64,000 bases of DNA. Source: Sordaria brevicollis (taxonomy: Eukaryota; Ascomycota; Sordariomycetes; Sordariales; Sordariaceae). Positions 156 to 38,166 of this stretch are shown here, in pieces. Under the pieces are notes generated by a model. That model ran no database searches. It was not told the DNA's origin and saw nothing but the letters and a program-made list of their open reading frames with translations. The position numbers and the translations under genes are program-made. The stretch spans positions 930,001 to 994,000 of the forward strand of contig JAUTDP010000015.1 of assembly GCA_033439795.1 (NCBI GenBank). The letters are read 5' to 3'. Position 1 is the first letter of the stretch. Every line of letters starts with the position of its first letter.

Positions 156-1133
156 ATGTCGTTAACTACCGTGGAGAACAATATCATCGCCTTGAGTAAG
201 TTGCCTATTGGTGTTCCGCGCTCGTCGCTCGACGGTCGACGACTTCGACACAGATCTTCGCTAACCCTTTGTCATCCATAACAGTCCATGGCATCCAGGA
301 GTTGCCGCTTGATCTACACCCATCCGATCGCCGTCGCCATGCGGTCCAGCTGGTTGGCAAAATCTGCACGCTGCCTGCTTTCGAAAACTACCCCTTAACG
401 GACCTCGCAGACCTCGTTGCGAGATATGGGGTCATCGTGAAGCGGTACTTAGCCCGGGCCGAAGACGCGCGGGACAAGGAGTGGTTGACCAAGATTGACC
501 TCTTTTGCCCAGTCATTCTGGGCGTTGTCACCCGTAAGAGATCCCGTCAAACCTCTAGTTATCATTTCATTTTCTAGTTCAAGGTAACTGACCCTTGTTT
601 ACAGGGTTGATAAACTTCGGGTATGCCCTTGATGCCATCCGCTGGGTCAACGAGCACACTGTCGACGGCGAAGTCAGCGACTCGGATGACTCGGAAACCG
701 AGAGTGTCTTCGACAGCGCTTCGGTTGTCGGCGCCAACGCCAACGATGATACGGGTAAGAGTTTACTGAGAGCATGGAGTGACCCATCTGGCAGCCAGTT
801 TAAACTAACTGTCACTGTTTTACAGCATCGATCACCGACAGTGACACCGATGAGGAGGCTTCTGAAGCCGACTTTGAGGAGTGGGAAGTGGCTTCCGAGG
901 TCTCTGACCTCATCATCGACGAGTGGGACACGGCTTCTGAGGCTCCGGATCTTGTCGCTTTCGACGAGGTGGAAGTGGACCTCATTAGCTTCGATGAGGT
1001 AGAAGTTGACCTAGTCAGCTTCAACGAGGTGGAAGTTGACCTCATCAGTTTTGATGAGGTCGAAGTGGACCTTATGAGCTTCAACGAGGTGGAAGTGGCT
1101 TCAGAGCCATTGGACCTCCTCAGCTTTGACTAG
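156..1133 (+). CDS. Small acidic protein with 30-nt tandem repeats, cluster family-like
   Basis: Function not recognised. Four exons are read at 156-195, 285-533, 605-754 and 826-1133, giving a 248-residue protein. All three introns have GTAAG donors and CAG acceptors and are phase 1. The N-terminal half is mixed and predicted helical. From about residue 145 the protein is strongly acidic and ends in a tandem repeat with core DLxSFxEVEV, about five copies. The EWEV and EVEV elements resemble the GWExV/EWELV C-termini of the next two genes. No signal peptide or membrane segment is seen. The start is the first ATG after a CA-rich leader and opens a 40-nt first exon like those of its neighbours. 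Intron phase and position place it in the cluster, but sequence similarity to the other members is weak. Confidence 0.75.
951..1100 (+). repeat. 30-nt coding tandem repeat
   Basis: Roughly 4.5 in-frame copies of a 30-nt unit (GAGGTGGAAGTGGACCTCAT type) encode DLxSFxEVEV. Copies differ mainly at third positions and at D/N, so the repeat is not freshly homogenised. Confidence 0.9.
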
Positions 1134-1214
1134 AGGTCTCTCGGATTGCAGGATCTTGCCCTGCGGGAGTGTCATCAAGTTGGATATGCGATATTCTTGG
1201 AGTTCAAAACGGCC

Positions 1215-1312
1215 GTGATTTTTTTTGTTTCCTTTTTTTTTTTTTTTTGTTTCCTTTTTTTTTTGTTTCCTTTTTTTTAAGTTTCATTTTTTTTTGGTTT
1301 CATTTTTTTTGT
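1215..1312 (+). repeat. T-rich low-complexity tract
   Basis: Runs of T separated by GTTTCC/GTTTC repeat several times just downstream of the first gene. The tract is non-coding and is probably 3' flanking sequence. No other structure is seen between 1134 and the next promoter. Confidence 0.85.
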
Positions 1313-1555
1313 ATTGCTTTCACAGAAGTGTAACGTCTCGCAGCTCATCCGTTCCCCGCACTTTGTATTTATCTGCCTCTTAAATCTATTATATCATCAG
1401 GCTTCGTCCCGCTCATTTGCATCTTTTCTTCGACATCCCCCCTCGTTTCAGTCCACAGTGGACATCCCAAACCTTCACATCACCGGTAAATTTCACAACT
1501 GTACCCGGAATTTATGAAGTGAAGTACAGGTACAAGATGTGGTCTGTACCATTCA

Positions 1556-1640
1556 CCGTGCATTGCATTCACATTTCGCTGCACTGCCTAGGCTCCCTAC
1601 CTCTCAAGCTAACCTGGGCACTGGCATAAAACCCCCATCG
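1556..1640 (+). promoter_or_regulatory. Promoter module upstream of the 1789 gene, duplicated before the 2601 gene
   Basis: The segment holds TTTCGCTGCACTGCCTAGGC followed by CCTA.C..TC, GGGCA and CATAAAA. A clearly related block occurs at 2400-2485 (TTTCGCTTCACTGCCCTAGG, GGGCAT, TATAAAAA). The TATA-like element lies about 160 nt before the ATG at 1789 and about 120 nt before the ATG at 2601. This suggests that the two genes arose by tandem duplication with their promoters. Confidence 0.6.
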
Positions 1641-1788
1641 AAGCCCACAACATTTTTTGCGGCGTGGCAAAAGATTCGTCCCTCACGCGTGTTTCCTTGA
1701 CTGGTCTTTTTCCTGGAAACACAACACCCACCAATAAATCTACCAATCTACTAGCAAAGGACCAACCACAAGCGGCTTGACAAACAAT

Positions 1789-2201
1789 ATGTCGTCCCAG
1801 GATGGAAATATCATCAACGAGCTACATGCCGTGTGTGAGTTGCTCGTATGCCCGCAGCCCGCCCAAGTCTAAACCACCCTCATCATTCGACGGCATGCCC
1901 ATTCGACAATGAGAGTCGACTAGAAGGGAGTCAGCCTCGAGGAAATCGAGACGCAATCAAACTAACAATGAATTCCCCGCGGTAGCCGAGGCACTCGATC
2001 GCCTTGAGAAGTCAATTGCTGACGACAGCAATGACAAGGTGGTCGCCAAGAAGAAAAAAGACTTGAAGAATGACGGCTTCGGTAGGTTATTGGCGAATCA
2101 ATCATGTTTAAGTCTCAACTAACTCTTGTCATGCTGTAGTTCTCGTCCACAAACGCGATAGAAAGCCCGAGAAGAAGGATGGCGAGTGGGAACTAGTTTG
2201 A
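1789..2201 (+). CDS. 67-residue lysine-rich family member (mini version)
   Basis: Function unknown. Three exons are read at 1789-1834, 1986-2081 and 2140-2201, both introns phase 1. The first exon begins MSSQDGN. The second encodes a short charged segment. The third begins VLVHK, continues with a K/E-rich stretch and ends EWELV. The last exon matches the last exon of the downstream gene (VFVKK to GWEMV), which supports the splice choice. It lacks the helical core seen in other members and so looks like a trimmed copy. Promoter similarity to the downstream gene points the same way. The ORF is too short for a plain ORF scan and the model rests on splice signals and homology. Confidence 0.7.
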
Positions 2202-2600
2202 GCCATTGAGGCATGATCTGATAGGGGTCACTGCGGGTGTAAACAGGCAGTACATTTCGTTACATAGTCATCTCAAATCCGTATCAAAAGTCTCCCTGTC
2301 AATCAAGGCGTCCTTCAGGAATGGATACATTTATTTCCTGAAATACACTGGTAAAATGCGTCTCAGCTGAATACGGGCTACGGCCTCTACCATCCACCGG
2401 CTCATCCATTTACTTTTTCGCTTCACTGCCCTAGGCCACCTATCCATCTTCACCTACCCGGGCATGACCTAACTGGTATAAAAACTACCCCCTCCACGCA
2501 CATTTTGCTGGGCTTGAACTTTCTCCTGCAAAAAACAACAAATCCCACCTACTAAACAACCACCATATCTCATCAAATACACACAGAGACTGACTACACA

Positions 2601-3430
2601 ATGTCGTCCTTTGAGCAGAAGCTTTACAAGCCCGCCTTCCCGAAGAGTAAGTCCTGTCCCACCTCTCACCATCTGTTCAGTTTACTATTACCTAGCCAAA
2701 CATCAACCCTCACCATATCTCAGAAACATCCACCAGGTCCTTTACTAACATGTCCCAGTCGTCGAGATGGCCGAGCAAATCGACGACAAACCCACCACCA
2801 TGCTCGCCGTGGACCGCGACAAGTTTGCCGAGGAGCTAGTTCACGATGCTCTCCGCGAGGGGTACTCCCCCATCAAGCTCCTGCACGCCATCGACATGTA
2901 CCTCGAAATGTGCAGCCACAGTGTCCGCGTGGTTGCCAAGACGGGCGTGGTGAATGATCAGTTGCTGCTCACCAGGAAGAACTTTTGTCTGCACGTGAGC
3001 AAGGCGTTGATTCGTAAGTTTCCTTAGCGTAACGACTCATGATGTCCAACCATTGTGGCATTGCCTGGAAACGTTTGTACGCTAGAATAGGTATTGACAT
3101 CTTCTCTCGTTACTACGTGTAGGCTTCGTGCGCCAGGAGAAGAACGACGCAGCTAGGGCGGCGGCTGTAAACGCTCGTGTTGAGGCCAGCTTGAAGGCCG
3201 CTGCGGTTGGCGAGAGGACCAGTATTGCTACAGTGGTTGCCAACCAGCCTGTCTCGGTCCTTGAGGATAAAATGGATATCGAGTTTGGTGGGTACTACCT
3301 GGTGATGTGTCATGTGAGGCGTGAGAGTCATCTGTTCAAAAGCTAACCTGCCGTGTCTCCAGTGTTTGTCAAGAAGCACAATGGCAAGTCTGAGACTGGC
3401 TCGGATGATGACGGTTGGGAAATGGTTTGA
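2601..3430 (+). CDS. 177-residue helical family member with GWEMV terminus
   Basis: Function unknown. Four exons are read at 2601-2646, 2759-3013, 3123-3287 and 3363-3430, all introns phase 1. Exon 1 encodes MSSFEQKLYKPAFPK. Exon 2 (255 nt) is a helical segment including FAEELVHDALREGY, comparable in place and length to the 264-nt core exon of the minus-strand members. Exon 3 is alanine-rich. Exon 4 begins VFVKK and ends DDDGWEMV. The TATA-like box at 2477-2484 and the ATG context ACAATGTC support the start. No targeting signal is visible. The basic/acidic make-up is compatible with a nuclear or cytosolic protein, but this is inference. Confidence 0.85.
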
Positions 3431-4295
3431 GGCTTGCGGTTTTGGAACAGAGATGGAGTGCCGAGGAGGATGTTTAGGGTGAAGCTCTGACGGGGCCCCC
3501 AAGCAGCTGCAATTGTGGTGGTGCAGACTCAAAGGAGTTGAGCTCCCACAGAGTTAACTGGATGTAGAGACTTGGCATGATCATTTCCGGCAAACCAACT
3601 CTTCAATATTTCGTTGTACTGATCGTTTGAAGTTAAGATCATACCTTATCAAGTTGTGACATGCGAATGCCTTCGAGACTCCTACGGGCACGGACCAGAC
3701 AGATTGCGTTCATCATGCTTTCGCTTTTTCACCGCGGGCCGTGCAGGTGGCAGGTGCTGGCCGCTCGCCGCTCGCCGCTCGTTTGGTATCCTGCATTCTT
3801 ACCCCATTCTCTCCAACTCTTGTGGAGACACTGGTACTGTGGTACAAAAGTTGACTGTCCCTTCCTTCCACTTCCCTTTTGATCTGGCCTCACACCTGGT
3901 CTTTCCATCTCACGCCGTGTTGAAGTTCACCACGACTTCCTAGGCAAAAGGCGCGAAGGCATCAATCCAGCAAGAGCGCTTCATGGGCATTTCCCGTACC
4001 TTTGACCCTGCAGTACAGTCAAGCGGCCTCAAGTTCAACCTCTCATCTCATTCCTTACAACTTCGATCTTGCAATCTCCTCAAAATGTTGTTTGCCGTGA
4101 TATGGGAGTCTTCTCATCGTTCATTCGGATGGGAAGCAGGGTGAAGCCTCTTCTCAACTTGGTCATCAGCGTACATGCTTCCAACATCATGGCTTCCACT
4201 CCACGAGCTATCCTCCCAATCACTATTTACGAGTCCCAAAAACCGACGGATCTCTGGAGAGCAAAAGCGCCTCGAACTTCTCACTACATGTCGAC
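3431..4295. other. Intergenic region, nothing clear
   Basis: No convincing coding region. The sequence just before 4296 is open in the frame of the next gene back to an AG at 4232-4233, which would be a phase-1 acceptor, so an unresolved first exon of that gene may lie in 4085-4170. Confidence 0.5.
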
Positions 4296-4696
4296 ATGGA
4301 AAAGCCCCTTGACGGTGCTGGCCGCATGGAAGCCGCCGAATTTGCCGTCCGCCTCCTTCATGGAAAGGCTGTCTTTGGTCCGTACACGTTCAAGAAGGAC
4401 AGAGAGTTTGATCCTGCAAGGGCAGAGACCCTCAAGTCGATTGTCAAGACATGGATCGCTATCAATGAGCATGTGTGTGAGAATGCTCGTTTGGAAAAGG
4501 ACACCGAGGCGTTCAACAAGGTTCTTGAGCGTCTATACTTTGCTCACAACATCCAGCTCGCTGCCAGTAAGTTCTTTTCTTTGAAATATCTGAAGGCCTG
4601 AGCAATTTCTTTCATCTTCAAGACATAGAGGCTGCTCTTTCTCCCGTTAATGGTGGCTCATCTTCTCGTACCGCCATCGACGACGACCTTTCCTAA
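4296..4696 (+). CDS. Helical protein, probable family member, 5' end uncertain
   Basis: Function unknown. Two exons are read at 4296-4566 and 4623-4696, with a phase-1 intron (GTAAGT to CAAG), giving at least 114 residues. The first exon is mostly helix-forming (AAEFAVRLLHGKAVFG and a charged segment after it) and the second ends in an acidic SRTAIDDDLS tail. The length of about 271 nt, the phase and the position are like the core exon of the cluster. The frame stays open upstream of the ATG to about 4234, where an acceptor-like AG sits in phase 1. The true start may therefore be an earlier short exon as in the other genes. Residue similarity to the named core motif is weak, so membership is inferred from structure and location. 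Confidence 0.55.
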
Positions 4697-5547: not shown

Positions 5548-5583
5548 CGAGGAGGTAGTGGAAGACCTCTGCAAGGGCAACAG

Positions 5584-6320
5584 TTAGCTCCGCTGTCCGC
5601 TCAGGGAATCTGGACAAGAAGAACGAATGAGAAGAGGGCTAGGGAGGTCAACGCACCACACTCCGCGCGGAGGATCACACGGAGGAACATTCTCTGAAGT
5701 TCGAGGCGTTCGTACGCCTGTCCGTGGGGTTGGTTGTGCATGTACCCTGGATTGCCGCTGATCACCGAATCCAGACGGCCGATTATGGCTTGGGCAGCGG
5801 CCTTCACGACCTCAACCCTGGTACCGGTGCGGTAAGCGTGCTTAAACCAGTTGATGGCCTCAGCCTCGATTTCGCCCACGGACGGGGAGACGCCGCCGTT
5901 GGCGTCGACCATATCGCTCACTACGAGGATTGGCTTGGTTAGAGACCCAAGGACCCGCCAGGGGGAGGCAAGAAACATACTGATCGAGTCAATAGGAAGA
6001 ATCTCGAGATGTCCGAGGACACGACGGGTCGGCAAACGAAGCTTGATCTCTGCACTGGGTCAATACCGCGATGCGAATAAGCATCAGAAGGGTTGGCAAG
6101 ACCTACTCGTAGGCTTGGGTTTCATGGGCCCGCTGAGAGGGGCGGTCGTCTTCGAGCCAGTGTCTTCAGCAGCACCGGGCGCGGAGGAATGAGGCTCGGG
6201 AAGCTGCATAAACAACTCGTCGTCGTTCTCGACAGCCTCATTACTTTTGGTAGGTTTCTCTTGGGCCGGAGCTTTCGCCTTCGGAGCCGTCGGCGACTTT
6301 CGCTTCGTGAAGTGCGCCAT
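5584..6320 (-). CDS. DILPVDxI-family basic protein, copy 1 (about 190 aa)
   Basis: Function unknown. Exons on the minus strand are 6320-6107, 6049-5981 (69 nt), 5920-5657 (264 nt) and 5609-5584, all phase 1. Exon 1 encodes a K/P-rich tail starting MAHFTKRK with the LPEP element. Exon 2 ends LEILPIDSI. Exon 3 holds NGGVSPS, WFKHAYRTGTR, GNPGYMHNQP and ERLELQRMFLRVIL. The last exon would encode DSLSGQRS and needs a GTGCGT donor. If that intron is not removed, the protein instead ends LLVQIP at 5601. Exon lengths identical to those of the next three minus-strand copies make the model strong. The conserved upstream block lies about 97 nt before the ATG. Confidence 0.8.
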
Positions 6321-6412
6321 GTTGGATTGAGCGCACCAAGTGTTGCGGGGGAATTGATCGGGTCTTACTCCTTGATGTTCCGCTCGTGCCTTTTTCAGTA
6401 AGCGAAATATTG

Positions 6413-7071: not shown

Positions 7072-8013
7072 TCATACAACCTGTAGGTGGCATCGCTGAC
7101 CAACACCAACTTCTTTGGCGAGGGTCAAGGAACCTAGCCCCTGCAGCACCGTTCTCAGTGCACGCTGGCTAATTCAGGATGTAATTGAAGAGTTCTATGC
7201 AATCAGCCGGTCAGTTCAAACCTGCGCTTCAAAAAGTTCCGCAAGAGAGAAGAACATATCCAGTCCAGGACAATCGACTTACCGCAACGGATGTCGAGGA
7301 TGGCCTCGAGGAACTTCCTCTGGCTCTCCAAACGCTCGTATGCTTTACCGCAAGGGCGGTTATGCAGGTACTTTGGGTTGCCTTGAAGAACAGAGTCGAG
7401 CCTCTCCATGATGACGTTGGCCGCATGCTGGACAGACTCGACCCTCACTCCAGCCCGGTAGGCCGTCTTAAACCAGTTGACGGCAGCGGCCCGAATTTCG
7501 CATGATGAAGGCACGACGCCACCGTGGGTCTCCGTCAAGTCGCTCACTGTGGGGTTTCGATTTCGTTAGAGACACCACAAAACGGGGATAAATGAGAGGG
7601 TAGAAGGGGAGAAGCTCACTTATCGTGTCGACTGGGAGAATATCCATTTGTGTCTGCACGCGGGCGGGAGGGAGGTGAAGAATGATCTCTGTAACCGGTC
7701 AGTAAAAGGCGGGTAGACGGTTATGGCGCACGGCGCCTTGATGAGTTTATCGCGACTCGAGAACTAGGCGACACTTACTCTTTATCGTCTTGGGCTCCGT
7801 CTGAGCGTTCTTCGCAGCCGCTCCAGTCTTGGTCGGGTTGGCCTTGGCCCTGGATTTAGGCTCTGGAAGCAGTAACGTCGACTCTGTGTTGCTGTTGCCG
7901 GCTTCTGACGACGCGGTTCGCATTGTTTGGTTCTCGTCGGCGCCAGCGCCTGGTAGCTCGGCTTCAGCTTCAGGCGCCGCCGTCTTTCTGCTGGTAAACT
8001 TGATGCGCGCCAT
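7072..8013 (-). CDS. DILPVDxI-family basic protein, copy 2 (about 209 aa)
   Basis: Function unknown. Exons are 8013-7779, 7688-7620 (69 nt), 7546-7283 (264 nt) and 7133-7072, all phase 1. Exon 1 starts MARIKFTSRK and holds STLLLPEP. Exon 2 encodes IILHLPPARV ending DILPVDTI. Exon 3 holds WFKTAYRAGVRVE, GNPKYLHNRP, ERLESQRKFLEAIL and DIRC. The last exon (acceptor CTAG at 7137-7134) begins GSLTLAKE, which parallels the last exon of copy 3. The basic start of exon 1 resembles a nuclear or DNA-binding tail, but no known domain is recognised. This copy is complete and shows no internal damage. Confidence 0.85.
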
Positions 8014-8840: not shown

Positions 8841-8846
8841 ACTGCA

Positions 8847-9100
8847 GTCGATCCGCAATATCGCCCTGAGAAACTATCGCTGTGTTTCCAAACGCTCAAG
8901 GCCCTTGCTGTGAGACCTACTGTATATGTATCGTGGATTTCCCACAATGACCGAGTTTAACCTCTACATGATTATAAACGCAGCGTTCATGATGACGGAG
9001 ATTCTGACGCCGGGCACACCTTACAAAGATTGATAGGTATATGAACTCTAATAGACCCATCGGCCTGTTGCTCAAAGGCCGCATAATACGGGGATTGGTG
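8847..9100 (-). pseudogene. Degenerate core exon of a DILPVDxI-family copy
   Basis: The minus strand reads as a decayed 264-nt core exon. In one frame it gives RISVIMNAAF, a TAG, RLNSVIVGNPRYIYSRS, KGLERLETQR, a second TAG, then FLRAILRIDC and an in-phase GTGAGT donor at about 8847. Both stops stand where intact copies carry GAG (Glu). The alignment to GNPKYLHN, ERLESQRKFL and DIRC of copy 2 is plain. The upstream part (WFKxAYRAG region) is barely recognisable and no exon 1 or exon 2 is found, so this is a relic. Confidence 0.75.
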
Positions 9101-9206: not shown

Positions 9207-11160
<1,954 letters not shown>

Positions 11161-11389: not shown

Positions 11390-11700
11390 CGGTGAAGAGC
11401 CCCGTGTCAGCAAACAAATGTAGTCTCACCATTAAGGTCGTCAATACGGTGGAGCCCGTGCCCGTGAATTACCTTGATTCATGAACAGCATGCCTGTACC
11501 CCCCTTCTCCCACCCTGACACTCTATCTTCCTACATTGGAATACCATCCGTCTGGAATCCTGCGCAGCAAGCCTTCTACCGCGCCTACAACACCCCGAAC
11601 ACTACATACCCAACACCGACGCCAGCGTCAACGTCGCAACAATGGTACGTCTCAAGCACTCGGACAAACCGCTCATCGTAATGGTAATATGAATGGAGAT
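11390..11700 (+). pseudogene. Relic of promoter and start of a 14224-type gene
   Basis: The sequence around TTGATTCATGAACAGCATGC (11473 onward) repeats the upstream region of the intact gene at 14224, where the same string begins at about 13913. At 11642 an ATG opens MVRLKHSDK, matching MVRVKHSDK at 14224, but the frame stops after 16 codons. It sits divergent to the gene starting at 11160, just as the intact gene is divergent to the gene starting at 13609. Confidence 0.75.
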
Positions 11701-12115
11701 CAGGATGGCGGCCCCCCAAATCTTAGTCATGGCCTTGCTCTTAAGAGCAGCATCGGCGAACAGCTTCGCATGAGCTTCTAGCTCGGCGTCCGGTACGCCT
11801 GCTTGAACCACCTCACGGCTTCGGAGCGGAGCTCGTGCATCAAGGGTGGGATTCCGTCATTCGCATCAGTCAATCTGACACTGACGTCCTGGTCAGAGGC
11901 ATGTTAGAAGATGACACTGCGCTAAAGTGGGCGAAGGACCTGCTCATGACATTTACGGGGAGGATGTCTACGGTTGGCTTCGAAATTTGAGTAGCTTCCT
12001 TAGCTGTGTCTGGCTCTGGGCGTAACAAGATCGACTCGTAGTTTTCTGTGGCAACTTCTGACGGGTTGGTATGTTTGTCTTCCACGTCGCTCTGAGTTGA
12101 GGCTCTCTTTCCGGG
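11690..12115 (-). pseudogene. Chimeric degenerate family copy
   Basis: Read on the minus strand. An exon-1-like piece with SILLRPEP runs straight into an exon-2 end, DILPVNVM, where the GT donor has become GC. After an acceptor the core exon starts VSD with a one-base frameshift, then LTDANDGIPP and AVRWFKQAYR. Right after AYR the sequence switches to a segment like the other subfamily (DAELEAHAKLFADAALKSK, compare EELMSHAKIFAEHAIKQ at 14224), in a different frame with a stop between. So this is a fusion of two subfamilies, broken at several points. No start codon is found. Confidence 0.7.
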
Positions 12116-12569: not shown

Positions 12570-13609
12570 CTACGTCAAGAACACGGGTCTTTCCCCCCTG
12601 CAAGGCGCTTTTGGGCGAAGGCTAGAAGTTTTAGTAGATGGATGCTTGAGAAAAGGAGCCGATGAAGCTTTTTGGGACACTTGGTTGTTGTCGCTACCAC
12701 CGATGGTGCTGCGGACAATCCCTAGTTGGGACCGAGCATGAACTCGAATACCTCTGTCACGTCGATTTGTTAGATGAAACGTGCGCTTCTATATATTCGT
12801 TTAGGATCACGCAAGGGATTCTGATGGATCAACTTACCGCAGCGGATATCGAGGATGCACTGAAGGAAACTCCTCTGGAGCTCCAAACGCCGAAGACCCT
12901 TCCCACGAGGTCTGCTATGGGGCTTCATGGGGTCGCCCCTGATCATCTCATCGCGGTGTCGAAGAATTTGTTCGGCGGCTGCTCGGATTACTTTCATTTC
13001 GGTACCGGCCCTGTAGGCATCTTTCATATAGTCCACGGCCCTGGCCCTGATCGCCTCCTGGGAGGGTGGGATGCCACCACTATCATTTGTCATGTCTTCC
13101 ACTTGTTGCTTGTTAGACATCTGGGACGAAGCTGGACGCAGGGGGAAAAGGACTTACTGATAGTATCCACGGGCAAAATTCCCTGGTGGTAAATAATCCG
13201 ACCAGGCGTCATTCGGAGGATGATCCCTGACTCTGTTAGCACGGTCGGCCCGTCGGGTGCCAGATGATCCCAGAAAAACAGAAGCTCGAAGAAGATATTT
13301 CGACGAGTCCCTGAATGAATGTCGAAGATTGAGGAGACACTTACGTTTGGCCTTTGGAGCCTGATGCTTCTCATGGCTGTGGCCGGTGGTCGTGGTCGAC
13401 TCAGCTTTGCCGTTGAGCTTGGAGCCCTTAGTGGCTTTCTCATGGCCCAACTGCGGCTCGTTGTTGCCTTTCTCACTTGACGTAATGCCAGCTCCCTTTC
13501 CATCGACGGAAATAAGCTCGTCGTTGTCGGACACAGGCTCGTCGTCGGGATCCGGACTTTGCGCTTTGGGCGGCGCCTCTTGACGTGTGGTGGGCTTAAT
13601 GCGCGCCAT
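12570..13609 (-). CDS. DILPVDxI-family basic protein, copy 4 (about 249 aa)
   Basis: Function unknown. Exons are 13609-13345, 13226-13158 (69 nt), 13101-12838 (264 nt) and 12721-12570, all phase 1. Exon 1 starts MARIKPTTRQ and is rich in K, S, T and H. The LPEP element of the other copies is not evident. Exon 2 ends GILPVDTI. Exon 3 holds NDSGGIPPS, MKDAYRAGTEMK, RRLELQRSFLQCIL and DIRC; the GNPxYxHN element is altered to GDPMKPHS. The last exon, after a CTAG acceptor, is S/K-rich and ends RPVFLT. It is divergently paired with the gene at 14224 over about 615 nt. Exon lengths identical to three paralogues make the model secure in its middle part. The C-terminal exon is less certain. Confidence 0.8.
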
Positions 13610-14057: not shown

Positions 14058-14966
14058 CAACATCCTCCCACCCTGACCCTCCACCTTCCAACATCGGAAC
14101 ACCATCCGCCTGGGAATACTCACCTACTGAAAAGACACCCCAACGGCCACCACCGTCCGCCGACAATCACCCTCCACCAACCACCACGCATCTAGCGCAG
14201 TCTCAACTCTCAACACCACCACGATGGTTCGTGTGAAGCACTCGGATAAGAAGCCGCCTTCCTGGAAGAGGGCACGCAAGCCCACCGCGAAAGAGACCCA
14301 GCCGGCCAAGAAGGTCACCACTTCGAAGGCCACAGTCACCAAAGCCACCAAGGCCGCTGAGGCTGATGACACTGAGAGCTGGCTCCTGCTTCCGGAGTTC
14401 GATCAGAAGGAATTCAAAGCGGCCGCCACCGAGCCCTTCCGTGGTAAGTTAAAATTGCATTGGACGGGTTATAATCTTCATTTACTGACAGCAGTACTCA
14501 CAGTCATCCTTCCTGTGCCCCGTCGTGGCACCAAGCTGTACGCAGCCTGGGAGCTGATCCCCGTGGGAAAAATTGGTAAGTCGTCAACGTCGACCTCCAG
14601 CACTGCCTTCTCTGCCGTCTTGTCGGGCTTGGTTTAAGGGTTAGATCGCTAACTTCAAAGGACAGTCAGCGATATGTACCAGTTCGGCTCTCCCCCGACA
14701 AACGAGGAGCTGATGAGCCATGCCAAGATCTTCGCTGAACACGCCATCAAGCAGGATGCTGCCACCGAGATCGAGAAAGCAGCTAAGGCCATCTTGGAAG
14801 ATCTGAATTTCACCGCCAACGGCTTCGGGACTGGAGCCTACCCCGTAGGCCAGCAATTCGAGGGGATTCTGAAGCAGGGCTTCTTTGTCGGAGCCATTGC
14901 TGATATTCTTAGCTCTGGCGCAGCCTCGGAAATTGGTAAGATATTCACTATCCATTCCCCTGTATC

Positions 14967-15326
14967 CAGCGGTAGAAACAAGTCAAGTATCGCAAGCAAG
15001 TATAAGCAAGTACTTGCAAGTTGTAGGTCAAGTAAGGGTCCTTACTTGCTTGATCAAGTCAAGTAAGCGGTCTTGCTTGCTTGACTGACTTGCCAAGCCT
15101 TTTGGACCTATCTAAAAGTTGATCCACCGGTTAGATAATTGATAATAAGGTCCCGATAAACTTCGATAAACTCCGATAAGCTTCGATAAGCTCCGATAAG
15201 AAACTAATAAGTACATTATCAAGCAAGTCAAGCAAGTTTCAAGCAAGCAAGTATAAGGCTTTTACTTGACCCACTCAAGTCAAGTAAGGTATTAAACTTG
15301 CTTGATTTGACTTGTTTCTAACGCTG
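14967..15326 (+). mobile_element. 360-bp hAT-like MITE in intron 3 of the 14224 gene
   Basis: Terminal inverted repeats: left end CAGCGGTAGAAACAAGTCAA, right end its near-perfect inverse (CAGCGTTAGAAACAAGTCAA when reversed). The flanks carry a perfect 8-bp duplication CCTGTATC at 14959-14966 and 15327-15334. CAGNG-type termini plus 8-bp duplications are the hallmark of hAT transposons. The interior is a set of CAAGTCAAGTAAG/CTTGCTTGACT repeats and GATAAGCTTC repeats with no coding capacity. Without it the intron would be about 106 nt. It is not RIP-mutated, as expected for such a short repeat. Confidence 0.88.
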
Positions 15327-15494
15327 CCTGTATCAGCGCCTTCCCGAGAATACGCTGCCAAGGGGTTGCCTTCTAACACACTTTCGCTGACGCATTTTCT
15401 CTCCATTAGTTGCCCAGAAGGTCGCGTCTACCAAGGGCCCTACTTCCAAGCCCACCCCGAAGGCCGTATATGCCAAGGACACCATCTCGAAATC

Positions 15495-15675
15495 TATCAC
15501 AATACTGGGTGGCTGGCCTGCAGGGATAACAGGAGTGTACGTAACCTAAATAACCGAAGTCTAAAGTCTAAGGGATTTTTATACAATAGCTAGAGATTTA
15601 TACATCTATAGAGTCTTACACAATTACACACAATCAAGCCTTCTTTACTCCCCCAATATTATTACTATTATAATA
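15495..15675 (+). repeat. 5' LTR of the Copia element
   Basis: 181 bp from TATCACAATACTGGG to CTATTATAATA. The ends derive from TG..CA by C-to-T/G-to-A change. The first ~45 bp are little mutated and the rest is RIP-mutated. Confidence 0.88.
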
Positions 15676-20995: not shown

Positions 20996-21176
20996 TATTA
21001 TAATACTAGGTAATTGGCCTACAGGGATAACAGGAGTATACGTAACCTAAATAACCGAGGTCTGGAATCTAAGGGATTTTTATATAGTAGCTAGAGATCT
21101 GCACGTCTGCAGAGTCTTACACAATTACACACAATCAAGCCTTCTTTGCTCCCCCAATATTATCACCATTGTAACA
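20996..21176 (+). repeat. 3' LTR of the Copia element
   Basis: 181 bp from TATTATAATACTAGG to CACCATTGTAACA. The last ~110 bp look unmutated and best preserve the original LTR sequence. Confidence 0.88.
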
Positions 21177-21308
21177 AAATCCGCCCCGGAGATTGTGCCT
21201 AGCAAGGCCACTGCCCAGAGGTCCGCTCCGAAGCGACTACAGGAGCTGCGCGAGGGCACTCGCAAAAGTGCTCGCCTTCAAAGCGCGGAGCCTAAGATGG
21301 AGATTTGA

Positions 21309-22187: not shown

Positions 22188-23609
22188 CTACTTGAGCAGC
22201 TCCTGAAGAAAGACTTGCTGGAGTCTCTGTCTGAGGATCTCGGACACGACCTCAAACTGGACGGGCCTTCTTGTGAGCTCTTCAATCTTGCCTTGCGTAA
22301 TTGAGCTAAGCAACGTCGCTGCCTTCTTCACCGCGCCCACTGTCTCGTTTTCCTGGGCTCTAGCCAGAAAGAGGCGTGCCTCAGCGGTCACCATCTCCGG
22401 AGTGGGCGACTGCAGTGTCACGAGACTTTCGAGGAACAGGCGGTTGACTACAGTAGACAGTTAGCGGGATTCAACGGCATGGAGGAGTGTGACATAAAAA
22501 TGCGACTGGAAGGAAACATAAGGAAAGGGTAGGAGCTTACTACGATCAACGACTGGGACCAGCTGATAGGCGGCCTTAACACGTGCTTCGGATTGACCAG
22601 AAGCTAGCTGGGTCATCTGCTGGTTTCCTGCCGCGGTGCTAGCGACGACGCTTTGCACAGGGGCATTGCCGCCGATGACGGACTCTGACAGCTTTGCAGC
22701 TGTATGCTCCTCGACTTCAACAGCTGGAGCTTCCATAGCCGCCGGTGTAGTAGTCGGAACAGTAGCCGAAGGTGGAGCTGTATCAGTGGCTATGACAGCC
22801 TCCATGGAATCTGCCGGAGAAGCGACAGGAGCAACTAAAGGAGCAAAGGCCGGAGCAGGGACCGGAGTAGCGGCAGGAACGAAGGCCGGTGTAGGAGTCG
22901 GGGCTGTGGCCAGAGTAAAAACCGGGGCAGGGGTCGGGGCAACAACTGGTCGAGCTGCCAGAATGGTGATGGTAGGGCGAGCCTTGGTAACGCTGGCATT
23001 CTCATCGCTGGCATCATCGCCGTCAACATCCTCGTGGCTGACATCATCGTGGTTGGAGTCGTGGTCGTTGGCTTCTCCCTCGTGGTTGAAATTGTCACTA
23101 TCAAATTCGATTAGTCCCTCCTCCACTATCTCAGCATCCCGAGACCCCTCTTCATCAACGTCAACGGCGCTAGCAACAGGAAGAACAGCGGGGCTTGTCA
23201 TGATTGGAGAACTAGCTAAAGGGGAATCAGGAGCCTCGCCTTCATCGTCGTCCGCGGTGGGTGTTGAAGCGATGTCGTTGTCGGGCAAGCCACCAGGTGT
23301 AGCGGTAATACCGAGAGCCCTAGCGACAGCTCTTGTCATACGCCTCTCGGTAAGAGGTCTCATGTCGGGTGGAGGAGAGCCGCGTCTTCTCCTGCGGGTT
23401 CCGCTGGGGGAAGCGTTGGCCGGAGCCTCATCCTCCGGTATGATCTCGCCGGCCGCACGGCGACGCTCGATGTCCCTTTGGCGCTCAAGCTCCGCCTGCC
23501 TTTGACGCTCTTCGCGTTCCAAACGACGATTTCGCCAACCGATAAGCTGGCTCGGATCGGTGATCTCCTCACCGATACGCTCTCCGACCTTTTTACAATT
23601 CCACGGCAT
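22188..23609 (-). CDS. Long family member with extended disordered N-terminal half (about 442 aa)
   Basis: Function unknown. Two exons are read at 23609-22541 and 22447-22188, with a phase-1 intron. The start MPWNCKKVGERIGEE is chosen for its context AAAATGCC; the frame is open a little further upstream. Residues about 30-60 are an R/E-rich helix, 85-110 hold an arginine run, 150-230 are acidic with D/H/N-rich repeats, and 230-310 are A/P/T-rich low complexity. The end of exon 1 reads AAYQLVPVVDR and exon 2 holds SPTPEMVTAEARLFLARAQE. These align with WELIPVGKI and PPTNEELMSHAKIFAEHAI of the gene at 14224, so the C-terminal module belongs to the family. Here the exon-2 motif has fused to exon 1. 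No membrane or signal segment is seen. Confidence 0.8.
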
Positions 23610-24600: not shown

Positions 24601-26366
24601 TCTTCTTGAAGAATCTGGCACTACCAGCTGGACAGTTTCAGTCTGGGAACTTGGACTTCCAGTTGGCGTCGTGTATTGTGTACAGTTCTGTGGGTGCTCG
24701 GTCGGTCGTTTCGGTCGGTCGGAGTCGAGCGGATTAATGTTCGTGTTGTTGTCTTGAGGCGGATCTTCAAAGCCCATGGTACAGCCAGGTGATGTTCTGG
24801 TCTGTTTCCACGAATGCCTTGGCCATATCTGAAAGCGGGTAGTGTCAGCATTGCTTTTCTGTGTCAAGTCAGCCCTAGTCATACATTACATACCGGCACG
24901 TGGAGTCCACTGTTGGTACACGAACGTCAGTCAACTTGTCTACCAAAGGGGGACGGAGAGGCCTTGTCAGCCAGAGGCCAAAGAGACGGGATGGACGTAC
25001 TGATGTCTTCGATGGGAATAAACTGCATTGCGTCCCGCACGTGTGTGGCGGGCAAGCGAATAGTCGGTCCTGTGGAGGACAAGATGTCAGTATGGGACTT
25101 CAAAGAGCGAACATCTAAGACCAATAAAGTATTTTGGTAGTTGATAATGAGGAAACCTACTTGCACCCACCTAAAACCTACCTACACCCAGTTTTTCTAA
25201 ATCGAACCTACTAACACCCAATTCTTGGCTGGGGTCCACCCGAAAAGTGGGCCGGCCAGTTGGATGATACCTGACATCGAAATCCCCGTTTTTACCCGCT
25301 AAATTTCACGATTCTGATGTATTGAAATATTGCGCTAACTTGGTCAAATTTTTTTCGAAGTCGAAGTTAACACTTTATACTTTTTTATACCAGCACCTCC
25401 CTGCACCACTACCTCCCTGCACCACCACCTCCCTACACTACCACCTCCCTACACTGCGCACCTTACACTATATAACACCCAATATCAAAAATACTACTAA
25501 AGTACGTAACTTTACTCAAATTAATTGATTTTAATCGTATTCGAATCCCTTTAATTGAGCGTAATTACTATTAATCTATTTTTAATTATTGTATTAAATA
25601 TTTACTAATGCTCCCTCTTCTATTTAGCCCCGCCCTTGTAGCGAATCCATCTCCTTTACCTTATCTATAGATTCGAACGCTTTTTCCGCTACGTAGGTAA
25701 GCGATTTATCCTTCGATAGTAATATTAAATAGGAGGTACCCGCCGACGACCCTACGTTCAATATATTACCCCAACCTAATTTTGGTAATGCTTTTACGCA
25801 CTTTATTTCGATATACCGCCGTTACCGCTTTGGCTTTACGACCGAACGTAGTGATTTATTCCCTAAGAATTATCTTTTTCGGTTAATTAATTTAATTATT
25901 ACTTAACGCGTTATTATAAAATACGATTTTACCCGTAAGAAGTTTAACCCGCCGGTAAATTTATATAAAAGGCGTAAAACTTCGATTAGAAAGTACGCGC
26001 CAAATTACCCCTTTTCAATTATTTTCTAATTTATAAAGAAGAATAATTACCGGTATACTATTAAAATTAAGAATTTTAAATATAAAAGTTACCCCCTATT
26101 TTATTACTTTAATAATTTGAAGCGGAGCTTCAACATAGAGAAGTGTTGAAAAACACGAAACGCGTTGAGCGAAGTCTTCTTCTATAATACCGTGACCCCC
26201 CTGCAATAATCCCTGTAAATCTTCCCGAGGTTTACCCGTCTACCCGCAGCTAGGATCCCTGTCGAAAAAAAAATTCTCGAGTTGGAATTGGTTGGATTAA
26301 ACCTTTGCCAAGCCGCTAAGGACGGGACGAGGCTTGGCATTCCAAAGTGGGTCCGATCAAGACAAA

Positions 26367-30631: not shown

Positions 30632-30726
30632 CTGGTCACCGTCAGTTATTCTGTGGCACTGCAGCGTTTTGGCCTTGCTGCTGTAAAACTGTCAACACAA
30701 CTACTTACCTCAAAAATCTCCCAACC

Positions 30727-31587
30727 ATGGATCCTTACACTGCCATGGATATGGACACACCCGAGGACGAGAGTATCTCTGGGGTTACCGTTGCCTCCGA
30801 GGATACGAGCGATGCGCAGCCCAGCAGTCTTCGAAGTCGCAGAATGACGCGCGGCATGTTGGCCGCTGGCGGCGTCCCTCCTCTTGTTGCCGCCCCAGCG
30901 AGGGCAACACGTAGAGTCCGGAAGAAGCCCACCGTAGCTGAGGAAGAGGAAGCCGGTGTTGAGGACGGCAACTCGCCCAGGTCATTCCCCCAACGCACGT
31001 CTACTACGAGGAAGAACAAGGGTAAGTAGACCATGGAAGCAACCTTTCTGGGCATTCAGTGATCAGTGCTAACAAGACATTCTCGCCTAAAGAATCTTCA
31101 CCGGATGCCGACAGCCACTGGGCTCTCAACAAGAACGGCGTGCCGGACATGGAAAAGCTTGGTATGTGCGCCTTGCAACTCACTTACTTGCTATCGAATC
31201 GACATATTAACACATGGCAACAGTCCGCCTTCTTACCAGGGACTATACCAAAGACCCTGACGAGTCTGACCTAGTCGAGGCCGCCCACAAGTACAAGTGG
31301 CGCGCAGTTGGTCCCGGCAAGCATACGCTGTGGGAGCTCAGGAGCATCACGCTCACTGAGAAGGCAGAGGCGCGCAAGAAGTTGAAAGAGAATCCTTCCA
31401 ACTGGATCGCTAAGGTGAAGCTCCGTGTCTGTGAGGCGGTTTTTTCACATGTCGTCAGTAAGTGCTATAACGTTACAAGATCCATAACATCGAAGAGGAT
31501 GTGTACTAACGACAAGTCTCAGGCGAGTGGGAAGTTGAGAGGCACGCCAAGTGGAGCGCAGACCTGGACAAAATGAAGCTCAACTAG
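30727..31587 (+). CDS. 220-residue family-like protein with acidic/basic N-terminus
   Basis: Function unknown. Four exons are read at 30727-31021, 31093-31161 (exactly 69 nt), 31224-31457 and 31523-31587, all introns phase 1 with GTAAGT or GTATGT donors. Exon 1 is acidic at the start (MDPYTAMDMDTPEDES) and then basic (RRMTRGM, TRRVRKKP). Exon 3 is helical and charged (DESDLVEAAHKYKWRAVG). Exon 4 starts SEWEVERHAKW. The 69-nt second exon and the phases match the minus-strand family although residue similarity is low. The TATA box at 30624 supports the start. It is divergent to the broken gene at 29804. Confidence 0.82.
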
Positions 31588-33275
31588 GGTGTCCTCAGGA
31601 AGATGGTGTTTGGTCAGCATAGCTCCCATGGTTACTTCTGCAGACCATGATGCAATAATATCAGTTTGTGAATATGCTATTGACCTCAAGTGCCTCGCGT
31701 TTCCGTGTGTACGAGAAACGACACGAGTAAATGTAATTTGATCCGATTGTCGTCCTTTTCCCGGGCGAATGATGCAGGGTAGGTGAAAGATTTGGCCTCG
31801 CTGAAAGACCCAAGGCAGACCGGGGTTGCACTTTACCAGCCTCTACCGGCAGGAGTTGACAACGATGTGTAAAGAAACAAAAGCAGAAGGTAACGAGGAG
31901 AAGAGAAGGGAGCAGCAGTCAACTGACACGAAAGTAAACGTCCCACCAGTGTAAATCAGATATTTCGTGTGAGAGATGAATCATGAACCGAGCCCTCGTT
32001 CTGCCGCCAGTTGATGATCGAGAGGCCCGGCATTGCCAAGCCCGACTCGGAAGCCCCACATCGGACCGAGAACAGTTCGGATGAAGTCAGTGCGAACGCC
32101 AAGGCGGCCGCTTTTGGACAGTCGGGAGCCCCCCTACAAGACCGGCAAAGCGGAGGCTAGGCGGCCGGGTTTCAGGCGGATTGTGCATTGTAAGAGACCG
32201 CAGAAGGCAAAGAATTGAAAGAGACAATAGGTTGGATTGAGTTGGTGCCGATGATTTACTTCCATGATCAAAGCCGCGAAAGCGGATTCTGGGCTTGATA
32301 CAGCTCATGGGTTGAAGTTGAAAAGAAAAATGTTTCCGCCGTGGGTGGCATGGAGGAGAGTCAAACACCACTGCAAGAAGAAAGATGTGAAGTTGAGGAA
32401 AGGGAATTGGGACACTGCAGACAGAAAACTCTGCAACTTCCTTCGATTTGGGGTCTGTGGGTGTTGCCTGCCGAGGCACAAAGTGAGCTCAGACAGCTAA
32501 TGCAATCTGCAGGCAAGAAGCGCCGATGACGCCTGCCATTTGAGAGGCTCAACTGCATCCTTTGCCTGCCCTATCCAAGTTTGGGAGTTGTTCTTGCCAA
32601 TTGCACCAAGGCTGGAACATCCCGTCATGACTGAGTCTCTTAGAGTCCGGATCGCCAATAAACGATGGCTCCATCCAAGTCATGAACCGTCATTATCCAT
32701 TAGGTGTTTCCAGATACTGTGATTTTGCTTGACTCTTGTCTTCATTCACGATATCCAAACCCAGGACCGTCCCTACAAACCCAATGAAAAAGAGACATTC
32801 GGTGAACAGACTACCACAAGCGGCTCACACACCTTCGAAAATTACACAGATATAGCTGGCTACCTTAGGTTGATGCCGTTGATGAAGATGCTGGTGTGCT
32901 TGGTACTTGATTCCTATCACTCACCCATGTCATTGTTCAATTCACAGCAAGTAATCCACGTCACAGCTGAACCTCAACCCCATGACAGACCGAACACTCA
33001 CATCACCCGATCACCGTGAGTCAGTAGGTGACCGACCGCGCAACCCTTAGAGGTAATGACTATACAGTTCCATATACATCCGAAAGGGTTAGATGTGATA
33101 TGGGCTATTAAAGAGACGATATTCCAAGTGAAAAAGAACTCATGGCGCATGGCCGCAAAGCATGTACAAGGATCGCAGCTTTATTTGAGGCAGTGGTTGT
33201 GTCTTTCATCAAGAACAGAAGAGATACCACCAGCCTTGGCATCTACACACGATCTTGGATCCGACTGTAACACAA
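31588..33275. other. Long intergenic region, nothing clear
   Basis: About 1.7 kb with normal base composition, no RIP and no family motif. Small overlapping open frames lack splice support. I see nothing to annotate. Confidence 0.5.
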
Positions 33276-33902
33276 ATGATGGAGAGAGGTTCAAACGCAA
33301 TCGGGGAGGAAGACGGCTCTGGGTCTCAACAACATCCTCCAAGTGCTTCAGATCAAGATACTTGTGAGTGTGTACATGATGATCGCGATTCATCCTCCCT
33401 AACCACCGCCCGGCTCTTATGCTAACATGTCAGTAGCTCGAAGCAATAACGAAGCTTCGCGCACTCCCCTTACCTTGGAAAACTCAATTAGATTGATTGA
33501 TCTCGACATGCTAGGTAATTGCGGTCTCCTGAGTCTCTGCATCTACACCATCCAGCCCAGTCGTCGAAACTTGAAACTTTTTGTCTAGTTCAGACATAGA
33601 AACATGTACTAACAGTTGCCCTTGTAATGCAAACTTACTCCAGCACGCGACTTGACGTCGATTACACGATGTACCCCACCGATGAACAAATCAACCTCAA
33701 AGCATGCGCGACCATCGATCGACTTACCACACTTTATCCGACCCACGAAGACAGATTCAAGATACACGTGGCTGTCATGACACTATTGACACGGTATAAC
33801 AATGTGGGGATGGTTCATGTTGCTCAAGACAAAAATAGGCGCCTGCTGTGGATAGAAAAAACCCTTTCCGCTCTGGGGCGTGCTTTGAATCGCAACACGT
33901 GA
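33276..33902 (+). CDS. 151-residue family-like protein
   Basis: Function unknown. Three exons are read at 33276-33363, 33434-33514 and 33616-33902, both introns phase 1 with TAACA-type branch sites and CAG acceptors. It starts MMERGSNAIGEEDG (two in-frame ATGs). Exon 2 ends ENSIRLIDLDML. The last exon begins VALVMQTYSS and holds YPTDEQINLKACATIDRL, which sits where PPTNEELMSHAKIFAE is found in the 14224 gene. The protein has no basic tail exon. Phase and order of exons support membership, but residue similarity is weak. No damage is seen. Confidence 0.72.
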
Positions 33903-34448: not shown

Positions 34449-35048
34449 ATGCCCGCCTCAAAGAAAGACATCGCTCCTGTCACGTATATCAAACAGAGTA
34501 GGTTTTCCTAGTTACCCGCGTGCTTTTCCAGGTCGTCAGCACGCTAACATGACTGCTACACCCTAGAATTCTTCAACGCGCCTCGCCATGACCTCCTTAA
34601 GCTGTCTTTTAGGGTCATTCCCATCAACAAGATCAGTGAGTCCATCACATTCAAATTTTTTCTTCATATCCTGCACGATAGATGCTAGGCCATCACGTTC
34701 CCTCGCGTTCGTTTATCCATTCTGACACCCAATCTTTTCTTTCTTCTTTCTTCGTGTGTTTCAGCCCGCGAAATCACCCAAAACATGAAGGTTGTCCCCG
34801 TCAACGAGCAGATGGAAGCCAAGGCCCGCGAGGTCGTCGAGCAGGTTGTCGAAATTGGAATCAGGAAAGAGACGGCAGGATTGGCCCTCACCAAGCTGCT
34901 GTCCAATTTCAGCTACCTGTATGAGTGGGGAAAATGCAAGGACAAGTGGGTTTGGGTCAGCGTTTTTCTTCTTAAGGCCATGATGGAGGCGTTGAAGCGT
35001 ATGAAGGAAGAGGCGAAGGAGGCGAAGGAGGCGAAGGAGAGCGCGTAG
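34449..35048 (+). CDS. 133-residue family member with VIPINKI motif
   Basis: Function unknown. Three exons are read at 34449-34497, 34567-34635 (exactly 69 nt) and 34765-35048, both introns phase 1. Exon 1 encodes MPASKKDIAPVTYIKQ. Exon 2 encodes PRHDLLKLSFRVIPINKI, which lines up with the IILHLPPARV...DILPVDTI exon of the minus-strand copies. The last exon is helical (EQMEAKAREVVEQVVEIGIR), has a W-rich patch (KDKWVWVSVF) and ends in repeated EAKEAKEAKESA, a likely single helix. It lacks the separate C-terminal tail exon. The exact exon length plus motif makes it a secure family member. No targeting signal is seen. Confidence 0.85.
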
Positions 35049-36263: not shown

Positions 36264-36853
36264 ATGTCGACGACCACCGACGCCCCGGCTATGCCGCACA
36301 AGACAGTCAAGGAGGAGGTTGCCGCTGAGGCCAGCCTTCGTAAGCATCCAGCAGCTTTCACGCTGCATCTGCAAAGTAGGAGGGGAGAGTACTAACTTAC
36401 CGCTTGTTAACTAGCCCAGTCCATCTTGCCCGAACGTGTCGCCAATGTCCCAAACAAAACCCAGAAGAAGACCAACGTCGAACAGCATCGACTTCGCCAG
36501 GCCGCCTTAAAGCTGATCAACAAGGCAAAGAGAGACAACTCTCTGGCTGGTCTTTTTGACCTGAAGCGTGGGGTGGAGCGTGTACTTCGTGATCTCAAGG
36601 ATCCAAAGCGGCCCAGCCCAGGATGGTCGGCATGTGCCGCCTCATACTGGAGATTGCTCTATTGGAAGTTATGAAACGCGAACTTGATCGTAAGTCTCGG
36701 CTTGGCGAAACGTTCAATGATTAGAGGTACCATTCCAACCAAACGAGATGTACTGACCCCGGTGTGGCCTCAGTTTTGGTCCCGAAGCCGAAGACGAAGC
36801 GTTGGGGCTTCAAAGGGATCACGAAGGTTATTTATAACCTTCCATCAGAGTAG
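36264..36853 (+). CDS. Family member with a one-base frameshift in the core exon
   Basis: Function unknown. Exons are 36264-36339, 36415-36689 and 36774-36853. Exon 1 encodes MSTTDAPAMPHKTVKEE. Exon 2 holds VEQHRLRQAALKLINKAK and GVERVLRDL, then in another frame RLILEIALLEVMKREL up to a GTAAGT donor. This second piece corresponds to ERLELQRKFLEAILDIRC of the minus-strand copies. Exon 2 is 275 nt where 276 would keep phase, so one base seems lost between about 36598 and 36632. Exon 3, with a CTGAC branch site and CCTCAG acceptor, begins LLVPKPKTKRWGF like other tail exons and ends NLPSE. As it stands, translation stops at 36674 after WRLLYWKL. It is a recent pseudogene or a shortened gene. Confidence 0.65.
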
Positions 36854-36899
36854 TCGACCCGACCGACAATCCCGCTTTTGAAACAAGTGCCGAAAATCC

Positions 36900-37261
36900 A
36901 GAAGAGTAGCAAATCTGAGCTTCGCGTCCCTGTCTGAAGTTGTCAAGTCGAACTACTTCAGCGGGGTCTTGGACACACCAGTATTCGAGAATGTTTTGTG
37001 AGTAACAACTATATGTACATGTCATGGATGCGTGTTTATGTTTATTTTGGGATGTATACTAACTACGCTGTTGACAGACCTGAAAACCTGCAACTACAGG
37101 AACAAGAAGGGGAGGATTTGGGAAAGACACAGCATTTGCCGTGCTCGCTGCTGAAGATTTTGGTCACTGCAAAGGACGCTCCTCGTACTCGGGCCTCGTT
37201 TGCGGGTAGGACGTATGCACGAACTTCTATTGCAGCCCTTCTGCTACTTCAAAAGGTTTAA
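36900..37261 (+). other. Possible orphan exon pair
   Basis: An open stretch with SEVVKSNYFSGVLDTPVFEN meets a GTGAGT donor near 36999. A TACTAACTACGCTG...CAG acceptor near 37077 is followed by an open frame to 37261. No start codon precedes the first piece, and the phase is 2 or ambiguous, unlike the family. It may be a relic or an alternative 3' part of the previous gene. Confidence 0.3.
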
Positions 37262-37548
37262 TTTGAACTGCGTGCTTTGCAACGCAATAAAAAACATTTT
37301 TTCCCCACGTCCAGATTACCGTTGTTGGCCTATTAATATTGAACTTCTCCCCGAACAACTCCTCCCATGGATTCCTTCCTTCAACACACCCCCATCTTGT
37401 AAACTTCTTATTGCCTTTCCCAGAGATATCTGTTGATTCTGCTCCGGACAATCAACCATCACAAACCGGCAAATTGTATCAAACATCCTGTCACGACAAC
37501 CAAGGCATCATGCCCAAAGTCTAACTCAGGCTGTGACCTCTGTCACAG

Positions 37549-38166
37549 ATCCTCGTGGACAGGACCGAAGAAGAGATAATACATCGGGCGCACTCCTTCC
37601 TCGAAGTTATCTCCCCGCAGCAAACATCCTCGGCCGAGCCTTCTCATAGAGGTAGTAGGGCTCACAGAGTAACCACTCCCTGGATTGAACCCTGTCGTGG
37701 GAGTCTCATGAGCGGTTTGCGTATATCTCTTGGTAAGCCTTTTTGTTTTTTTCCCCTCTGCTCCCTGTCATGGTCGTCATCGATTCTCTTCCTTAGTTGC
37801 TTTCTCTTATTTTTTTCTCCATTTTCACCCCCGGTGGTTCTGCGGTGCCTGGCTAACCTCTCATCGACCGTCAACCTCCCTCCAGATAATACCATATGCG
37901 CCCGGAAGATTACAAAGTGGGTCGTTAGTCTGGGTACAAACAAGTACGGTCTGCATGCGCTGCGAAGGGACGCCATCAGACACTGGAACAAGAACTATGA
38001 AGGCTGCTCCACAAGAACTTTCAGGGGTAATAGGGAGGTTGTGCTGAGGATAATGGTCAATAATTATCTAATAATAATGATTGATGGTAAATTAGTTCTT
38101 GTTTATTGCCTGGACTACATGCCATGTTGCTATTCATCCAGCCCAGAAGAGAGGACATTAAACTAA
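37549..38166 (+). pseudogene. Family-like gene, 3' exons clear, 5' end unresolved
   Basis: Two phase-1 exons are well supported: 37886-38026 (141 nt; begins DNTICARKITKWVVSLG and holds DAIRHWNKNYEG) and 38096-38166 (begins VLVYCLDYMP, ends PEERTLN), whose VLV start recalls the tail exons of other members. An upstream exon ending at 37732 in phase 1 holds VDRTEEEIIHRAHSFLEVIS, comparable to the EELMSHAKIFAE helix. Its own 5' border would need a phase-0 acceptor at 37548 or reading through stops, and no convincing first exon is found. The gene is either incomplete or damaged at its start. Function unknown. Confidence 0.45.

Follow-up and report, generated by a model that had tools for sequence, protein, structure and literature searches.

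Gene content of the Sordaria brevicollis cluster

We analysed a window of 64,000 nucleotides (nt) from Sordaria brevicollis, a relative of Neurospora, which covers positions 930,001 to 994,000 of the forward strand of contig JAUTDP010000015.1 (assembly GCA_033439795.1). The contig is 1,545,624 bases long and the genome 53.08 Mb. The window holds a cluster of 14 small genes, named here by their start positions in the window, for each of which a model with phase-1 introns only can be built. By sequence similarity, seven of the 14 genes, together with relics, can be assigned to one family, of which 6320, 8013, 11160, 13609 and 14224 are the close members and 34449 and 23609 the more distant ones. 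The predicted models of this core family are as follows.

5657..6320, minus strand: gene 6320, core family; exons 6320-6107, 6049-5981 (69 nt) and 5920-5657 (264 nt); phase 1; tail provisional
7170..8013, minus strand: gene 8013, core family; exons 8013-7779, 7688-7620, 7546-7283 and a tail exon from 7194
9422..11160, minus strand: gene 11160, core family; exons 11160-10908, 9819-9751 and 9685-9422; tail provisional
12722..13609, minus strand: gene 13609, core family, NCBI P0003; exons 13609-13345, 13226-13158, 13101-12838 and 12753-12722; three phase-1 introns
14224..15494, plus strand: gene 14224, core family, NCBI P0007; exons 14224-14443, 14504-14575, 14666-14935 and from 15410; three phase-1 introns
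22191..23609, minus strand: gene 23609, distant core-family member; exons 23609-22541 and 22447-22191; one phase-1 intron
34449..35048, plus strand: gene 34449, distant core-family member; exons 34449-34497, 34567-34635 (69 nt) and 34765-35048; two phase-1 introns
8844..9014, minus strand: core-exon relic with in-frame stops
11605..11903, minus strand: chimeric relic made of core-family pieces
24930..25181, minus strand: orphan copy of the 69-nt exon 2 motif, recognised mainly by eye, with weak profile matches (E 3.2 and 0.21)

Alternative acceptors are possible for the tail exon of 8013, each giving phase 1. Intron 1 of 11160 is 1088 nt long and holds a repeat-rich stretch (about 9860-10850) with an ACGACA-type microsatellite. 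In 23609, the exon 2 motif is merged into exon 1 (23609-22541). The remaining seven genes are listed below.

156..1133, plus strand: gene 156, NCBI P0012, 248 amino acids; exons 156-195, 285-533, 605-754 and 826-1133; three phase-1 introns
1789..2201, plus strand: gene 1789, a mini gene without the core exon; exons 1789-1834, 1986-2081 and 2140-2201; two phase-1 introns
2601..3430, plus strand: gene 2601; exons 2601-2646, 2759-3013, 3123-3287 and 3363-3430; three phase-1 introns
4296..4696, plus strand: gene 4296; exons 4296-4566 and 4623-4696; one phase-1 intron
30727..31588, plus strand: gene 30727, NCBI P0011; exons 30727-31021, 31093-31161, 31224-31457 and 31523-31588; three phase-1 introns
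33276..33902, plus strand: gene 33276; exons 33276-33363, 33434 or 33437-33514, and 33616-33902; two phase-1 introns
36264..36674, plus strand: gene 36264; exons 36264-36339 and 36415-36674; one phase-1 intron

A preliminary description of the locus is borne out on three features: the absence of the core exon from 1789, the exon fusion in 23609 and the relic at 11.7 kb. The acidic last exon of 156 carries 30-nt tandem repeats (948-1097). By eye, the C-termini of 1789 and 2601 are similar; the proteins end in WELV (exon 2140-2201) and WEMV (exon 3363-3430), respectively, endings that we take to resemble Atg8-interacting motifs. Gene 4296 may be the 3' portion of 2601. Another small gene lies to the left of the window at L029:8181-8602 (C7:928181-928602), with a short exon 1, an apparent GC-AG phase-1 intron and a single helix-rich exon; a genome search found no second copy of it.

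The cluster is flanked on both sides by blocks rich in adenine and thymine (AT-rich). A centromere-sized AT block was considered and rejected, since the block that follows 974 kb stops before 1030 kb. Additionally, an Rfam scan at the gathering score gave no match inside the window, and no HET domain was found among ten open reading frames scanned near the cluster, in a region annotated only in part.

Intron phases

An all-phase-1 model with GT-AG introns was obtainable for 14 of the 14 listed starts, with 31 introns summed over the models, in agreement with the preliminary description, in which every completed model had phase-1 introns only. For 4296, 23609 and 36264 the pattern consists of a single intron each, and a phase-2 alternative is possible for intron 1 of 33276, which is a caveat on the uniformity. 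Because phase may have influenced which models were chosen, and the result would then be circular, the independent NCBI annotation was used as a check. Among the six NCBI proteins at the locus, whose gene models may be ab initio rather than derived from complementary DNA (cDNA), 18 of 19 introns are in phase 1. Four of these proteins are identical to our models (P0012 to 156, P0011 to 30727, P0003 to 13609 and P0007 to 14224), with 12/12 introns in phase 1, and the two that fuse neighbouring genes, P0001 and P0010, have 6/7. Specifically, P0001 (span 8013-5597) splices exons 1-2 of 8013 to the core exon of 6320 by two introns, both in phase 1, while P0010 (span 2601-4696) fuses 2601 to 4296 with intron phases 1, 1, 1, 0 and 1. 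The lone intron outside phase 1 is the one that joins 2601 to 4296; it is 880 nt long and has the donor GTTTGA. Both mergers are likely annotation errors. No NCBI protein of the locus was seen for 1789, 11160, 23609, 33276, 34449 or 36264.

As a local control, 11 introns lying between long open frames showed phases 0:1:2 in the ratio 4:3:4 (phase 1 in 3/11); all come from the flanking 60 kb, the window from 38.2 to 44 kb contributing none, and two of them overlap and are mutually exclusive. In a manual count that takes each set of homologous positions as one, phase 1 holds for 13 of the 14 NCBI introns. This differs from the local control (Fisher P = 0.002; 0.0005-0.002 when one overlapping control is removed) and from the rate in F. 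verticillioides core genes (P = 4e-6), for which a published study gives 172 of 534 introns in phase 1 (PMC5677156). For N. crassa, introns are described as biased to phase 0 (PMC532390).

Membership of the core family

The A-type genes, 14224 and P0002 supplied exon 2 and the core for a profile, which was run over 3854 six-frame segments of the window and its flanks. The profile recovers the five close members, which it includes, at E 4e-28 or better, all within the window. It also matches pieces of relics around 8.9 kb and at 11.7-11.9 kb and, weakly, the 25-kb piece (E 3.2). The genes were further compared with 300 shuffles of their own composition each, of which the scored ones were counted. 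None of the scored shuffles equalled 34449 (18.0 bits; 281 scored) or 23609 (10.7 bits; 276 scored), both of which lie outside the profile. Gene 36264 was borderline to weak (2/245), and no signal was obtained for 156, 2601, 4296, 30727, 33276 or the left-hand gene. In a profile rebuilt with 23609 and 34449, from which the E value of 0.21 for the 25-kb piece comes, the strong scores of these two genes are circular by construction. Robust sequence similarity was not found for 156, 1789/2601, 4296, 33276 and 36264, and motif-level resemblance gives a hint that 33276 may be kin to the core family. Of the single family claimed in the preliminary description, a local family with relics stands, linking 7/14 genes, and the inclusion of all 14 is not supported.

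A tblastn search of the S. brevicollis genome with 8013 found eight places, all in the window. Genome-wide DNA and protein searches, the latter with 8013, 14224, 2601, 30727, 34449, the left-hand gene and 156 as queries, gave no convincing match beyond the region among the best candidates scored, the lowest E being 0.93. Core-family homologs were found in N. hispaniola, N. intermedia, N. tetraspora and Neurospora sp. IMI 360204. Among the matches listed in this word-based search, the named homologs all belong to genera that we place in the Sordariaceae; P0009 is unnamed.

A further claim held up, namely that the genes have no recognised domain: Pfam gave nothing above cut-off for 10 of the 14 proteins and NCBIfam none for six. 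As to their being undescribed, a search of one open-access library by accession name found no paper. A known domain was also sought for the core family by PDB sequence search, which returned weak rows only (best E 0.75).

Gene 30727 is, by its sequence matches, a member of a separate Sordariaceae group, with homologs in S. macrospora, N. crassa, N. tetraspora, Copromyces and Pseudoneurospora. Candidate domains for this group were rejected: among six homologs searched with Pfam, the bacterial family HflK_N appeared in three (best E 0.0021) and DUF5473 in one, and the best PDB sequence match (E 0.019), a phage-type virion polymerase, aligned to the disordered part. A profile of the 30727 group did not place 23609 among its best 13 matches. 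By eye, an RRMTR motif occurs in exon 1 of both 23609 and 30727.

Age, constraint and gene death

The core exons of four close paralogs differ at proportions of 0.28-0.39 for nonsynonymous (pN) and 0.60-0.83 for synonymous sites (pS). The ratio of nonsynonymous to synonymous substitution rates (dN/dS) is 0.15-0.29 in four of six pairs; for the remaining two, dS is infinite. Because five of the six pairs are at or close to saturation in dS, the ratio is rough. From these values, the four paralogs look like old copies under constraint, with purifying selection on the core. In a tree of ten cores, 14224 and P0008 of N. tetraspora split from the A-type genes with support 100/100, and the branching order within the A-type is not resolved. 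The duplication that separated 14224 from the A-type is older than the Sordaria-Neurospora split.

Gene death is real, as the relics and the disrupted tail of 14224 show. Beside the chimeric relic lie, on the plus strand, a start that by eye resembles the one of 14224, near 11640, and, at 11422-11555, a duplicate of the DNA upstream of 14224. An AT-rich element at 15495-21177, whose ends carry 182-nt direct repeats of 86% identity, sits in the last coding exon of 14224, and sequence resembling the tail of P0008 resumes past it. Of the fast birth and death proposed earlier, the death stands, and 'fast' is not supported, given the dN/dS values and the age of the duplication.

Predicted fold of the proteins

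The AlphaFold2 model of N. tetraspora P0005, computed with ten sequences, has a mean predicted local distance difference test score (pLDDT) of 65.2 and a predicted template modelling score of 0.51. As predicted by this model, the N-terminus (residues 1-75) is disordered with pLDDT below 50, and helices occupy residues 88-96, 99-109, 117-133, 138-157, 170-192 and 196-204. The ten-residue blocks from 91 to 190 reach 83-92 and form a confident helical domain, while residues 191-206 score 56-57; the exon-4 helix is a low-confidence prediction. With exon boundaries transferred by alignment rather than read from the gene of P0005 itself, residue 81 is the first of exon 2 and residue 102 the first of exon 3, so that helix 99-109 spans their junction and the helical domain (about 91-190) is made by both exons. 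The in-frame loss of an exon would hence still harm the fold, which makes the modularity proposed earlier doubtful.

In the AlphaFold2 model of the 30727 group, residues 1-103 are largely disordered and helices lie at 118-125, 135-149, 157-177 and 182-219. Both models are helical, and their helix masks agree at 0.76 over 78 positions, with 16 of 77 shifts equally good. With Foldseek no fold match stands out for either model: the lowest E values are 0.82 and 0.58, and none falls under 0.001.

A crude hydropathy test found no obvious signal peptide or strongly hydrophobic start in the 14 N-termini, the 12-residue maximum within the first 35 residues ranging from -1.22 to 1.27. The proteins of 8013, 11160 and 13609 begin with MARxKxTxR, resembling the start of the histone H3 tail. 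This degenerate pattern has five genome-wide matches, three in the cluster and one that we take to be histone H3. Mimicry of the H3 tail was rejected: the reversed control gave two matches and the lysines are not all conserved in Neurospora, so chance suffices for such starts.

Origin of the shared gene layout

Together, these data probably reflect an old orphan family, found only in Sordariaceae so far, that was duplicated locally, inherited its phase-1 introns and encodes intracellular helical-bundle proteins. The duplication would have taken place in one AT-block-rich region of S. brevicollis. The ancestor would have had about four exons parted by phase-1 introns, a layout passed to its descendants, and the phase uniformity would reflect this ancestry rather than an adaptation for exon swapping. 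The proteins would open with a long, disordered N-terminal tail, and a compact bundle of helices, predicted to form from exons 2 and 3 jointly, would come after it. They would be intracellular, probably nuclear as judged by eye from their basic tails, and would act as binding or adaptor proteins through the bundle.

Several points weigh against this reading. The splice sites are predicted ones. Against the phase uniformity itself, a crude phase-blind scorer, which favours additional introns and length, ranks the all-phase-1 model top at just five of the 14 starts; at eight, the top model contains another phase at least once, and 30727 comes out intronless. The top choice of this scorer disagrees with the NCBI model wherever one exists. 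For the distant members, the profile gives E values of only 0.71 (23609) and 1.6 (34449), with an outside segment (E 0.93) between them, and hhalign puts both above the other genes, yet with probabilities of only 33% and 13%. The saturation of dS also counts here, and the dN/dS values are compatible with brief positive selection or with selection outside the core. The ancestral layout, the intracellular location and the binding role are what we infer. Finally, half of the listed genes share the phase pattern without a detectable sequence link, and inheritance explains their shared phase only if they are relatives too.

The last point leads to a wider reading, in which all 14 genes and the left-hand gene are one ancient superfamily whose sequence has eroded and whose phase-1 layout and helical core exon are kept. 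We regard this as possible, somewhat short of an even chance; it is an extension of the orphan-family explanation, not its exclusion. The phase-1 pattern is improbable among unrelated genes (P 4e-6), a further phase-1 gene adjoins the window at its left, and the helix propensity of six unlinked genes (156, 2601, 30727, 33276, 36264 and the left-hand gene), measured from the start of the core exon, jointly fits the AlphaFold2 helix mask of the family better than random shifts, of which 272 in 20000 do as well. Genes 4296 and 1789 were excluded because they are without an upstream intron or a core exon. The joint fit is carried by 2601 (1/77 shifts) and 30727 (6/77) and is middling for 36264 (14/77) and the left-hand gene (16/77); however, 33276 (35/77, contrast almost nil) and 156 (49/77, contrast negative) do not fit, and the two AlphaFold2 masks match each other no better than the 16/77 shifts given above. 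The family helix-start motif was found in 33276 (22/5000 shuffles, P 0.005, with the core start set ten residues too late) and in the left-hand gene (119/5000, P 0.024), but six of eight rows have P above 0.05, and with eight motif tests the motif and helix signal is a hint only. Profile and hhalign comparisons were also negative for 156, 2601, 4296, 30727, 33276 and the left-hand gene, and the possible guidance of model choice by phase counts against this reading as well. That the whole cluster is a single fungal superfamily recognisable by gene structure alone, namely by phase-1 introns around a helical core exon, is put forward tentatively. Gene layout may outlast sequence in this cluster.

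It is unlikely that the symmetric phase-1 exons were selected, or mechanistically favoured, for shuffling among neighbours as a modular generator of diversity. Such shuffling would fit P0001, in which exons 1-2 of 8013 are in frame with the core of 6320, the core-less 1789, the absence of the 69-nt exon from 156, 2601 and 36264, and the chimeric relic. However, P0001 skips the open core exon of 8013 itself and is the likely annotation error noted above, no intact swapped gene was found, the observed chimera being a relic, and the helical domain is built over exons 2 and 3 with a helix across their junction. A fast-evolving secreted effector family, like the bicycle genes of plant galls, would suit a cluster of short genes that share one exon phase and are confined to a single lineage but is highly improbable here, as the crude test found no strongly hydrophobic start in the 14 genes, the core is constrained, and S. 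brevicollis is to our knowledge not a known plant pathogen.

Comparison with known systems

Orphan genes are often assumed to be newborn since their relatives are not found. The cluster described here, where intron phase lasts and sequence fades, offers a concrete site for testing whether such orphans are old relatives, Sordaria and Neurospora being convenient laboratory organisms. With small helical domains in PDB (MIT, MazG-like and stressosome), the predicted models have in common a generic arrangement of three to five helices. The lineage-specific clusters of Neurospora, as described in PMC10684091, consist of short orphans of about 192 amino acids and about two introns, with paralogs often adjacent. 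The present cluster resembles them in its short, clustered Sordariaceae orphans and often neighbouring paralogs. That account stresses positions near telomeres with HET-domain genes, whereas our cluster is internal on a 1.55-Mb contig.

Of published systems, the aphid bicycle family comes closest. According to PMC9168663, nearly all internal exons of bicycle genes are of one phase, and gene structure finds relatives that sequence misses. Both are highly divergent, lineage-specific families with one exon phase. Bicycle genes differ in having about 17 exons on average and in being putative effectors of plant galls, whereas the genes here occur in a fungus, comprise two to four exons, have a constrained core and lack an obvious signal peptide. 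If the superfamily reading is true, gene structure could be used to trace orphans that sequence search calls unrelated, and the cluster would be the fungal counterpart of the aphid bicycle genes.

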